Below, in pieces: positions 40,131 to 46,917 of a stretch of DNA of 64,000 bases; position 1 is the stretch's first letter; each line of letters starts with the position of its first letter. The stretch comes from Rhizopus arrhizus. Taxonomy: Eukaryota; Mucoromycota; Mucoromycetes; Mucorales; Rhizopodaceae. Position numbers and translations under genes: made by a program. A model generated the notes under the pieces. That model ran no database searches. It was not told the DNA's origin and saw only the letters and a list, made by a program, of their open reading frames with translations. Where the stretch lies: NCBI GenBank assembly GCA_024220505.1, contig JAKZZE010000003.1, forward strand, positions 186,001 through 250,000, in the 5' to 3' direction.

Positions 40131-40197
40131 ATCGTCAATGACCAAACACGACCATTACTCCTGCATCGATTGCAAGTTCCTTGATTTGTTTTTTTTT

Positions 40198-40326
40198 GTT
40201 ATAATCTAAAATGAGACGATTTAATAAAATAAGTTAGACGGCTTAAAAGATAAAAGAGACTAACGTCAGATTTTTTTGAGACAAGTGAGTAAAACAAATT
40301 AGACAATACAGGTTCTTTTTGTAGAC
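40198..40326 (+). repeat. Left terminal inverted repeat of the Fanzor element
   Basis: It begins GTTATAATCTAAAATGAGAC and its reverse complement matches 42917-43044 over the full length, at roughly 85% identity by eye with one single-base gap. Shared blocks include TTTAGATTA, ATTTTATTAAATCGT, GTCTCTTTTA, CTCAAAAAA and ATTGTCTAATTTGTTTT. Confidence 0.9.
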
Positions 40327-40410
40327 ACATGTTCAAAAAAATGTTGACGAGCAATCCCTTATATTATTGTTCAAAGACTTACACTATATCTGGGATTAAT
40401 GCAGCGTTAA
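40327..40410 (-). other. Candidate omega-RNA/3' non-coding segment of the Fanzor element
   Basis: This is the non-coding stretch between the Fanzor stop and the inner edge of the TIR, read on the minus strand. In known TnpB and Fanzor loci the guide RNA scaffold comes from the region after the ORF through the element end, and the guide is the flanking sequence beyond it. Here that would be 40410 down to 40198, with a guide starting just outside at 40197. Position only; no fold was computed. Confidence 0.35.
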
Positions 40411-42552
40411 CTACAAAGGATTATTTTGTCTTTTCGTCGGTTGACTAGTACTAGCTGATGGTGATGACATATCCTTTCTTTTAGAGCCGGTGGAGAGAGG
40501 TTTTTTCGATCTGCAGAAACGTTCTGGTCTTTCACCATTTGCACGCAGGCTAAAAAGGATTTGTCTAAAGTTTAACGTAGCAGCCATATCACGATTCCAA
40601 AGACGACGAAGAGGGGCTTTATCAGTAGTTTCTATTGTGCTCATCACAGCCTTTAAACATTGTTGGTTTTTGCACCTGAGCAGAAATTATGAAAGCTTGT
40701 TATTTTTTTTCTACTTGCATATAAAAAGCACTTACCTTAAAAGGCCATGACGGTCTACAACGGGATACTTTTCTCTTTGATATGGTCTAGGATTCTGCAC
40801 TTTTTTAAACGTTTCAAGTTCACCATTTTGGCAAGAAGGGTACAGACTAGAAGTCCGGAACTCGTCAAGGAGGTACACCTGGAAGCCTTCTTTGGCTAAC
40901 ATTCTTCTCATTCCGACACCTCTAATGGGTTCATGATACTTTACCTTTCCTGCCGACCAATTACCAAGTATTAAGATAGAATCATTCCCAAACCTCTCTC
41001 TAAGCTTCTTGGCTAACCGTTTGTCTGCTTGTTGCTGATTGATGAAACTTGAGAACTTCATTTTTCTAAAGGGTAAAAAACCACCGGCACCCTGATCTTC
41101 TGCTGCAGGGCGATCTTCATTTAAGTAGTACGCTTTCATGACATGGGTGACTTTGGCTCTTTCTTGAAGATACTCGATAAACTTGTCTTTGTTGACAGTT
41201 GAAGATTTGAAATGCGACAGGGAAAGCTCGGCTGCAATCACTTCGTCTCTCTTCAAGTTGTCCCTGAGCTTCCTGAATTTTCTAGATTTAGTTTCGATTG
41301 CTTTTTGGTTGCTTGTATATCGGTAAATCATTTTATTTTCAACAGTACTCTTTTCATGCATACAGTAAAGCAAGTCTCGACGGCCAGGATCAATTAATAC
41401 ACATTTGCCAACACCAGCCAGCAACTCTTCTTTTCCCAACTTCTCAATGTACTGGAATTCTTCTGCTTTAATAGACTTTGGCTTTCCACCACTGCTGCCA
41501 CCTTTCTTCATTGTATCGTAGCTTTGCTTTAACACCGACACACCTACGCCATCTGTGTATATCGTACCTCTAAACTTCATGATCTTTCTTTCTCCTTGTG
41601 GTTTCATCGCTTTTGATCTAACATCAAGAACGGCTCCCCATACTACTTCTTTATCCAAGTGGCTGATGATGGAATTCTTCAAGATTTGAGTATTTAAAAT
41701 ATATGTATCAATCGTCATATACGATGGTATGAAGCCCTTTCTTAATGGAAAGCAATTGAATGATTTGTTTTGAAGCGCTTCGCACATGCTTGATAGTCTA
41801 TAGTACGCTTTTATGTGCTTGAGAGGGTTAGCTTTGCAGTCGTAATAGATCGAGCCTTTCGCAAATCGATAATCCGTCGAATACGAGTCAAAAAGATTAC
41901 GGATTTTATCTAAATCATTTGAGGAGAAAAACTCTTTGGGAACATCTTCAATGCTCCTTGACGATATAGCCAACTTGACCTTGCTTATCTGCTCTGTTAT
42001 TGTCTTTATAGTTGCCACAATCTCCTTCTCTGTTCCCTCGTTTTTCTTCATCTCGCTTTTCAGCGCCTTGATTCTTTCGTTCTTCTTTAAGAGCAAGTTA
42101 AGAAACATTCGAACTTTGTTTCCGAATTGAACCTTGACCCCATTCAGATAAGCAGTGACGATCTTTACCATTTCATAAGAGGCTATCTGATGAGCATACT
42201 TCATATTAATTGGCTCGTACGAACAGCACTGAAAGTACTGGTGTCGATAGTTGAGTACTAGCCCTTTGTAAGTTCTTGATTTTGTCGAAGCTTTCTGCTT
42301 GTCTGGTTTGTAGTTTTTGAGGAGTGACAAAAAGACTTCTTTAAAAAAGTCAACATTAATGAAATCCTCCAAGGGAAACGCAGGGTTATTTTCTAGTTCA
42401 TGACTAAAGATGTACTTCAAAAAGGAGAATGTATGTAACACGAGGGTATGAACATTAGCTACAAGCGTCTTGAGTAGCGGAATATATTGTGGCTTCCACC
42501 CAATACCAGCGATTGAACTTTTAACTGTTATGATTTTTAGAGGCGGTTCCAT
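40411..42552 (-). CDS. Fanzor (eukaryotic TnpB-like RNA-guided nuclease)
   Basis: Minus-strand exons 42552-40736 and 40675-40411 give 693 residues. The C-terminal half carries the RuvC-like nuclease of Fanzor/TnpB/Cas12 proteins: first acidic residue D388 in VLIDPGRRD; the block SILILGNWSAG ... LLDEFRTSSL (about 525-570); a zinc-finger region with C574, C607 and C612; and the last acidic residue D635 in LWNRDMAATLNFRQI. DEFRTS followed by a cysteine pair, and NRDxxAxxN, are typical of Fanzor1. The usual central glutamate position reads Asn (GNW), so E564 of DEFRTS may act instead, as reported for Fanzors with a shifted catalytic glutamate. The first zinc-finger Cys is replaced (YPSC). The N-terminal 350 residues include a coiled coil (150-200) and basic regions. 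The C-terminus is basic and Ser-rich, like a nuclear targeting tail. The intron separates the zinc-finger halves and restores LLRCKNQQC. No frameshift is seen, so the gene may be functional. Confidence 0.88.
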
Positions 42553-42916: not shown

Positions 42917-43044
42917 GTCTACAAAAGGAATCTGCATTGTCTAATTTGTTTTGTTTACTTGTCTCAAAAAATTTGACGTTCGTCTCTTTTACCTTTTAAA
43001 GTGTCTAATTTATTTTATTAAATCGTTTTATTTTAGATTAAAAC
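42917..43044 (-). repeat. Right terminal inverted repeat of the Fanzor element
   Basis: Partner of the left repeat, ending GATTAAAAC at the outer edge. It ends exactly where the reading frame of the adjoining LINE fragment begins. The mismatches between the two ends suggest the insertion is not recent. Confidence 0.9.
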
Positions 43045-43581
43045 ACTATATTATCCACTCGAGCCAATTTGCATAGAATCATCCCAGCAAAGGTAGATGA
43101 CGACTATTGCCAATTGTACAAGCTACCAGAAACAGAGCAGCATATGCTCTTTACTTGTATTCAAAAGCAAGACTTGTGGAACGCAGCCTTCAAGAAATAC
43201 TTGTCAAATCCTAAAGATCCCAACTGTAGCTCAATATTCGAGGATTTATCCACACTTAGGTTATCCAAGTATTACATCTTACACTATCATGACAAGTTTA
43301 CAATCTATGATTTTTTTTGCTACAGTCATTCGATTCATTTGGAAAGCCCACTGGCAACAATTCTTTGAACAGACTCCTGTCGTGGATGAGATTGTCATCA
43401 ATCAAATCCAGAAGGAGCTATTGAAACTATCTGCTTACAATTCTCTATGCTAATTTCTTTTGTATTTTTATAAGTCACTGTTTAATACACTTGTATCGCT
43501 CTTAATCCTTATACTCTTTGATGAGTTTTAATAAACATTAAAATTTTCATCCATAAAAAAAAAAAAAAAAAAAAAAAAATG
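43045..43581 (+). mobile_element. LINE 3' end (zinc-binding tail of ORF2) with poly-A
   Basis: The frame reads STRANLHRIIPAKVDDDYC then PETEQHMLFTCIQKQDLW, the zf-RVT type C-terminal region of non-LTR ORF2 proteins. The frame shifts once near 43300 and continues to RFIWKAHWQQFFEQ. The unit ends in a run of about 25 A at 43556-43581. It is cut off at its 5' side by the Fanzor element's right end. Confidence 0.8.
43556..43581 (+). repeat. Poly-A tail of the LINE fragment
   Basis: A homopolymer run of about 25 A directly follows an AATAAACATT-containing 3' end, marking this as a retroposed LINE terminus and giving its orientation. Confidence 0.7.
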
Positions 43582-45991: not shown

Positions 45992-46917
45992 ATGTCTTTG
46001 TATGACAATGATCCTTCTGGTGAGCAAAGACGTATATGGAGTGAGTAAGTAGATTGATATTCTATCCAATATAACTTACAGAAAATAAAGAGAGCAGCTG
46101 GAATTACGAAAGAAACATGAACTGAATGACAGATTGTCTTTTGACATCTCTCTCAAAGGGTTAAAATATATTGGTGGTGCAGACTTGAGTTTCCCACTCA
46201 ATGACCATGAGAATGCAGTTGCTTGCTTGATTGTCATGACGATGCCTGATCTTCAGGTAAACTGCTCTTTTGCTTTTATTTCATTTTCTAATATGGTATT
46301 ATTAGGTAGTTTATAAACGATTCTTGGAGACCAAGCTTTATCTTCCTTATATTTCTGGCTTTTTAGCCTTTCGTGAAGTAAATCCTTTACTGACCTTGTT
46401 GGATCAACTGAAGTCTGAACAACCCGACCTTTATCCACAAATCCTCTTAATAGACGGTAAATCAATCATTGATATTATCATTATTTTCATTGACCTTTTA
46501 ATACAAGGTAATGGTTTGCTACATCCACGTCGATTTGGTATTGCGTGTCATTTAGGTGTCTTGTCGGATACACCCACTATTGGAGTGGCCAAGAACTTTT
46601 TGATGATTCCTGATGAATTAGAAAGTATTACAGAGATGAAAAACAAGTGGCATGCAACACTTCAAACAAAAGGAGATCGTTTAGATCTTGTGGGTAAAAA
46701 GAATAATGTGCTGTATGGTACAGCACTAAGGACATCTAGTAAAAATCCTTTGCTGATCAGTCAAGGTCATCGTGTCTCGTTGGATCTAGCCGTTCAGGTC
46801 GTCTTGGCTACCTGTCCAAAGTATAGGATACCGGAACCTATACGAATGGCTGATTTGGAAAGTAGAGCTTATATCAGGAATAAAAAGCACCTTCAATCAT
46901 CAAAAACAATCGATTGA
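45992..46917 (+). CDS. Endonuclease V
   Basis: Exons 45992-46044, 46091-46256, 46306-46456 and 46508-46917 give 259 residues. Endonuclease V cleaves next to deoxyinosine in bacteria and inosine in RNA in animals. Visible family motifs: GGADLSF with the first catalytic Asp, LPYISGFLAFRE, the LIDGNG-LHPRRFGIACHLGV block formed over the last splice, and TIGVAKNF. ALRTSSKNPLLISQGHRVSL is the later conserved segment. The third intron (51 nt) is a multiple of three and has no stop, so retention would add 17 hydrophobic residues inside the catalytic DGNG motif. The C-terminus is basic. Confidence 0.92.

Follow-up and report, generated by a model that had tools for sequence, protein, structure and literature searches.

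A Fanzor1 gene carried by a Tc1/mariner-type element in Rhizopus arrhizus, and a possible cut-and-copy role of the nuclease in its family

We analyzed a stretch of 64,000 nucleotides from Rhizopus arrhizus (contig JAKZZE010000003.1, positions 186,001 to 250,000; hereafter the window) and found that the gene at 40411..42552 is a genuine Fanzor1, fungal kin of the CRISPR nucleases, confirmed far beyond chance by its sequence features, and that it lies within a Tc1/mariner-type element, described here as non-autonomous, of which the genome holds scattered and nearly identical copies. The reading that we consider reasonably probable is that the Fanzor of this family re-cuts the sites that are emptied by mariner excision, that repair then restores the element, and that the copy in the window is itself inactive. 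The more specific claim, that the Fanzor acts here as the copy-keeping nuclease of a Tc1/mariner element, with a one-sided ATA flank as its trace and the junction of one copy (L021) as a possible scar, is put forward tentatively, as we lean slightly towards doubting it. The genome that was searched comprises 50.3 Mb, with the window on contig 23, and yielded at least 83 stretches that match the window protein, fragments included (individual stretches are given L-numbers in the following).

The Fanzor1 gene and the state of the window copy

The original prediction had described a Fanzor gene with a single intron and a spliced product of 693 residues, and the coordinates, the length and the intron were all reproduced. 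A phmmer search connected the window protein to PpFz1 (E 3.2e-149) and to SpuFz1 (E 5e-42), and 66 relatives were recovered from the protein database, the closest named one being P0001 from Rhizopus arrhizus/oryzae (99%, with 83% of the query covered). Local Pfam recognized no Fanzor domain in exon 1 and none in the spliced protein, for which it returned a single weak and unrelated match (E 2); the match to solved Fanzors by phmmer was nonetheless significant. In the structural comparison that had been proposed as well, Foldseek against PDB structures recovered the bilobed Fanzor fold with a RuvC core, so that neither of the outcomes named as refuting the prediction came about. The motifs were also found exactly where they had been reported: D388 in VLIDPG (the DPG of RuvC-I), DEFRTS at 563-568 and D635 in NRDMAATLN (R634-D635 of RuvC-III). 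The TDG motif of the WED domain is present as T333-D334-G335, with T333 nearly invariant, D334 in 63 of 64 and G335 in 64 of 65 relatives that cover these columns. Both the fingerprint of DPG plus alternative glutamate and the TDG motif have been described as Fanzor features (PMC10711439). Sequence, motifs and fold therefore agree on membership of the Fanzor family, and the gene represents a new Fanzor1 copy in a genus for which Fanzor1 was already listed in 2013.

Among the matches listed, eight copies are full-length, including that of the window; they are scattered, share 98-100% protein identity and have an open frame in seven cases (that of L007 is interrupted by a stop at 532). The 40 distinct changes in exon 1 within this family comprise 26 nonsynonymous and 14 synonymous ones (ratio 0.48, p 0.03). 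The intron holds the same position in all eight copies (length 59-60 nt) and separates the two cysteine pairs of the zinc finger, in agreement with the original prediction. The zinc-finger region is indeed present, but it had been overlooked that its first cysteine is gone in the window copy: the finger reads Y571-P-S-C574...C607...C612, which leaves three of four cysteines and an incomplete C4 finger, six residues separating E564 from position 571. That column holds cysteine in 50 of the 54 relatives covering it. Since the seven other full-length copies all keep Cys571, and the C4 finger is thus present at the level of the family, C571Y can be considered a private mutation of a Fanzor1 member; it weighs against function of the window copy and leaves the descent from Fanzor1 untouched. 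A single-base sequencing or assembly error is a possible source of the change. At the end of the element that borders the 3' side of the gene, moreover, the window copy has lost the last few bases and the adjoining TA, which are kept in the young copies L002-L008 and L011. Because a zinc ligand is lost and the guide-side end is eroded, the window copy is probably no longer active, and the working nuclease that the original prediction implied at this locus is not borne out: besides C571Y, the damage affects the very end at which the guide would join the guide RNA.

The surrounding element

The original prediction missed both the TA-flanked inverted-repeat element around the gene and its seven sister copies of full length. 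The terminal inverted repeats are ~130 bp long and 88-89% complementary; the end next to the 5' side of the gene is referred to as the gene-5' (left) end and the opposite one as the gene-3' (right) end. Intact ends in other copies read CAGTG or TAGTG against CACTG or CACTA, with TA outside, and this TA was found at 15 of 17 gene-3' ends and 11 of 12 gene-5' ends that were counted (26 of 29 overall); the window copy has retained it at the gene-5' end only. Between the ends of the window element there is no open reading frame of at least 100 amino acids except that of Fanzor, and hence no DDE transposase. Two segments of contig 23 with the same outer ~40 bp do contain a transposase of the DDE_3 type (two pieces, Pfam 3.1e-13 and 6.2e-5) together with a Fanzor fragment of 251 nt (91%). 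As DDE_3 is found in different elements that share these ends, the window element is called non-autonomous, and a mariner enzyme is its likely mover, in trans.

The same-ended elements with DDE_3 and a Fanzor fragment are L050 (C23:1658816-1665826), L049 and L066. In L050 one stop interrupts the DDE part, the N-terminal part lies in a different frame, and the element appears in the assembly as a near-perfect palindrome with arms of 3.2 kb. Two right ends, L057/L068 (C14:280119-280301) and L065 (C41:971383-971567), have no Fanzor nearby among the matches listed, and resemble the 'ghost' elements of Spizellomyces (PMC10432273). L064 (C39:228960-229097) is a TA-flanked sequence of 138 bp that has a mariner-like end on either side and looks like a miniature inverted-repeat transposable element. 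One-sided truncation was considered as a general rule for the 11 older or partial copies and rejected, as both sides are affected: the gene-5' end is missing from L011 and L014, and the gene-3' end is wholly or partly missing from L009, L016 and L018.

A sister family in the same genome

A second Fanzor family is represented by seven copies (L021-L026 and L028) with 41-42% identity to the window protein. The alignment of L022 with PpFz1 is free of gaps over 698 residues and runs straight through the FRI insertion of the latter. The elements of this family measure ~5.1-5.2 kb and have CAGTG ends that are distinct from those of the window's family, with TA outside; both ends are present in six of the seven copies (L021 lacks the full gene-5' end), and the two terminal repeats differ slightly from each other. 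The elements hold a transposase region with DDE_3 and a helix-turn-helix (one copy tested), which is terminated by TAG in the four copies that were translated, TTTTAG being found at that spot in all seven. The transposase region appears to be broken, unless an intron lies at this position. In six of seven copies, on the other hand, the Fanzor frame is open as far as the exon normally ends (in L026 it is open for 596 codons), and the mean number of nonsynonymous over the mean number of synonymous changes per site (dN/dS) is 0.39 (21 pairs). With such a ratio and mostly open frames next to a broken linked transposase, the nuclease seems to be maintained where the transposase is not, an argument that was made for another family by Bao and Jurka (PMC3627910).

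A motif on one side of the insertions

Read in the orientation of the gene, 10 of the 12 insertions of the window's family that were counted have ATA as their gene-5' flank and 7 have TTTATA, versus 4 and 2 of 17, respectively, for the gene-3' flank turned round; the background frequency of TTTATA is 1.3% of the TA sites in ~200 kb of the same genome. In the sister family TATA occurs at all six gene-5' ends versus one of seven gene-3' ends, and for both families taken together the ATA counts are 16 of 18 gene-5' and 6 of 24 gene-3' ends (one-sided Fisher 4e-5). For these counts the six copies that are fused to a long interspersed nuclear element (LINE; see below) were taken as one on the gene-5' side, and L016/L020, L018/L030 and L011/L027 were each counted once. 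Another 20 stretches contributed six ends (L052, L053, L057, L061, L063 and L065). Excluded were: 12 stretches of unclear side or kinship, L067 (no end), L068, the eroded right end of the window element, L049 and L050.

The target-adjacent motif (TAM) of Fanzor and TnpB nucleases sits directly outside the gene-5' end of the element, because in the empty site it adjoins the guide. The ATA fits the ATN that PpFz1, close kin to the sister family, requires (PMC11423790), and we take the ATA flank to be a putative TAM footprint.

A proposed cut-and-copy cycle

The favoured reading can be cast as a cycle. A mariner-type transposase, provided in trans, would excise a copy of the element. The gene-3' end would be transcribed to yield the omega RNA, with the host DNA directly outside that end as guide, and Fanzor loaded with this RNA would recognize the empty site, once resealed, through its match to the guide together with the ATA, often TTTTATA, to its left. 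The empty site would be cut, and repair from another copy would reinstate the element, so that cut-and-paste would effectively be turned into cut-and-copy. We infer that insertions beside a TAM would be the ones retained, because it is there that an emptied site would be cut again and the element returned.

SpuFz1 has its RNA scaffold meet the guide at the gene-3' end of the element (PMC10432273), and by analogy 40198-40410 is the right place for the candidate omega RNA in the window. As the terminal repeat is long enough for a whole scaffold, the opposite end could in principle encode one as well; the mainly one-sided occurrence of the motif argues for the gene-3' end as the putative source.

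One junction may record such an event. L021 (C2:768410-772837, together with L071) misses the outer dozen bases of its gene-5' end and is joined at TAA. Its gene-5' flank reads ...TTACTATAGGAGCCTAA followed by the element and the opposite flank begins with TAGGAGCCTAA, 11 bases of the empty site that occur on either side of the element. Such a junction would result from a cut within the guide-side sequence of the empty site, if copying then proceeded from the right while the left was closed by end-joining, and it is possibly the scar of an empty-site cut that was repaired by copying. This is a single case, and any staggered break that captured a fragment would give a similar junction. L021 is the only copy in which a long word (11 nt) of the gene-3' flank recurs at the gene-5' junction; words of 8-10 nt elsewhere are read as chance.

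Young copies fused to a LINE tail

Six of the young copies (window, L003, L005, L006, L007 and L008) carry a LINE tail of ~500 bp beyond the gene-5' repeat, 100% identical (rounded) between the six. The tail does not represent host flank, as it is common to several copies. It closes with a poly(A) of 25 nt in the window, 31 nt in L003 and 34 nt in L006, after which unrelated DNA follows. Among the four copies with an A-tract that were checked no target-site duplication was found (longest shared word 4-5 nt), and in five of the six fusions, the window being the exception, the opposite end is an exact mariner end with TA. Past the tail nothing is common to all six that would indicate a larger unit; an additional inverted-repeat insert occurs in L005, L007 and L008, the last two of which have another 133 bp in common. 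L004 is a mosaic, in which a young-type gene is combined with an older left end and with a different, older LINE tail, and this combination points to DNA-level gene conversion between copies.

Weighing the explanations

Several observations weigh against the cut-and-copy reading. The candidate omega RNA gained no support from folding or from Rfam: the alignment of eight distinct right ends (window end and L008 left out, identical rows collapsed) folded no better than 200 column shuffles (z ~0), single right ends gave z scores of -0.77 and -0.07 for the window's family and 0.29 and -0.30 for the sister family, and Rfam returned no match for the right end, all of these being weak tests for short AT-rich RNAs. 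No intact transposase was seen among the elements with the ends of the window element, and the ends of L050 and L066 are flanked by CA instead of TA. The flank samples are small and stem partly from different copies at each end; the gene-5' flanks of L009 (CTA) and L004 (TAA) lack ATA, and the two of youngest type (L002 and the LINE fusion) have ATA and not TTTTATA, the four LINE copies that were read at the ATA spot of the fusion differing from it by one base. A transposase that discriminates between the ends could also generate the asymmetry, and the LINE tail on six of eight young copies is not predicted by cut-and-copy and is left unexplained by it. Tc1/mariner elements favour AT-rich targets, and this leads to a rival in which a genuine Fanzor1 is a passenger of no use to the element and ATA/TTTTATA reflects the target preference of the mariner transposase. 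It would accommodate the TTTATA in two of the turned gene-3' flanks, to which the uncounted L049 (TTTTATA at the gene-3' end, judged by the direction of its Fanzor fragment) may add a third, and in the sister family the slight difference between the terminal repeats would allow a transposase to distinguish the ends. The ends of the window's family, however, are nearly symmetric and the motif is nonetheless mostly one-sided, the asymmetry of two families with different ends points to the same side of the Fanzor gene, the motif agrees with the ATN measured for PpFz1, and a Fanzor dN/dS below 1 alongside a broken linked transposase is not what a useless passenger leads one to expect. We therefore consider this explanation unlikely, but worth keeping in mind.

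The LINE fusions suggest another route, by which the young copies would have spread as RNA, the LINE machinery mobilizing a chimeric transcript of mariner-Fanzor plus a LINE tail of 500 nt. The three poly(A) tracts followed by unrelated DNA and the identity of the six tails are what such a route would produce, but the lack of target-site duplications in the copies checked, the exact, TA-flanked mariner end of five of the six fusions (unlike random 5' truncation) and the mosaic of L004, which indicates conversion at the DNA level, make it improbable as the general explanation. Copy conversion, one-sided repair and LINE-driven mobilization could each account for part of the fusions. We regard it as very improbable that the window copy encodes an RNA-guided nuclease that is active or has been adopted by the host: open frame, D-E-D triad and splice sites are intact, but C571Y is private among the eight copies at a strongly conserved column, the end adjoining the guide is eroded, and the near-identity to seven scattered copies is the sign of a transposon rather than of an adopted gene.

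Feature coordinates

Table 1. Features of the Fanzor1 element in the window (columns: feature, position, strand, remarks; D, E and C counts refer to those of the 66 relatives that cover the column)
Fanzor1 exon 1	40736..42552	-	ATG at 42552; residues 1-605 and bases 1-2 of codon 606
Fanzor1 intron, 60 nt, GTAAGT...CAG	40676..40735	-	
Fanzor1 exon 2	40411..40675	-	includes stop, C607, C612 and R634-D635
D388 codon (RuvC-I, IDPG)	41389..41391	-	D in 61 of 63
E564 codon (alternative RuvC-II glutamate, DEFRTS)	40861..40863	-	E in 49 of 53
Y571 codon (first zinc ligand position)	40840..40842	-	cysteine in the 7 other full-length copies
D635 codon (RuvC-III, NRD)	40588..40590	-	D in 35 of 37
Right-end (gene-3') terminal inverted repeat	40198..40326	.	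outermost bases and TA target duplication replaced by A-run (gene orientation)
Candidate omega RNA region	40198..40410	-	by analogy with SpuFz1 (PMC10432273); guide expected at ~40178-40197
Left-end (gene-5') terminal inverted repeat	42917..43048	.	
TA target site beside left end	43049..43050	.	flank is ATA in gene orientation
LINE-like repeat, 3' end	43051..43554	+	common to 6 of 8 young copies; at least 34 further long matches, 88-96%
Poly(A), 25 nt, closing the LINE tail	43555..43579	+	

Elsewhere in the window, at 46324-46917, lies an open frame with a match to Endonuclease V (Pfam 1.7e-46) that is unrelated to Fanzor1.

Relation to known systems and significance

PpFz1, the Fanzor1 of Parasitella parasitica (PDB 9cf0-9cf3), has an FRI insertion of ~100 residues in RuvC (PMC11423790). 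The window protein has only a short stretch at that place (alignment break, residues 481-491), and the FRI-bearing counterpart in this genome is the sister family (shown for L022). The cyclophilin-binding FRI domain is reported in the same paper from Parasitella and Rhizopus only (PMC11423790). The element that encodes SpuFz1 in Spizellomyces punctatus, SPu-1, is similar in having Fanzor1 as sole gene, inverted repeats, TA duplications and many copies (PMC3627910, PMC10432273), and it likewise has a fixed dinucleotide outside the gene-5' end (PMC10432273). That dinucleotide is CA, in contrast to the ATA/TTTTATA found here, and the terminal repeats of SPu-1 measure 30-33 bp versus ~130 bp in the window element. 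PUl-1, PUl-4 and PGv-1 (Bao and Jurka 2013) similarly combine Fanzor1, with or without a mariner transposase, with mariner ends and TA duplications, and differ from the window element by host (PMC3627910). Bao and Jurka list four Fanzor1 families in Rhizopus oryzae (PMC3627910), and one of these may be the window's family.

The closest functional parallel would be TnpB of IS200/IS605, for which cut-and-copy has been described, the nuclease cutting the vacated site and repair restoring the element (PMC10432273). Cutting of a vacated site and restoration by repair are likewise proposed here, by analogy, but the transposase would be a DDE cut-and-paste enzyme of the mariner type and the putative role of the nuclease is read from the flanks. 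The discussion of PMC10432273 describes the contribution of a Fanzor to its host element as unknown, and sister copies in one and the same genome carry signs of what it may do. The window copy, being probably inactive, is of little use as a tool and derives its value from its family. A genome that contains both FRI-lacking and FRI-bearing families informs on the FRI domain, and two Fanzor-mariner families with young and intact copies, ATA mainly at the gene-5' side and solved kin with a matching TAM make cut-and-copy testable in a eukaryote.
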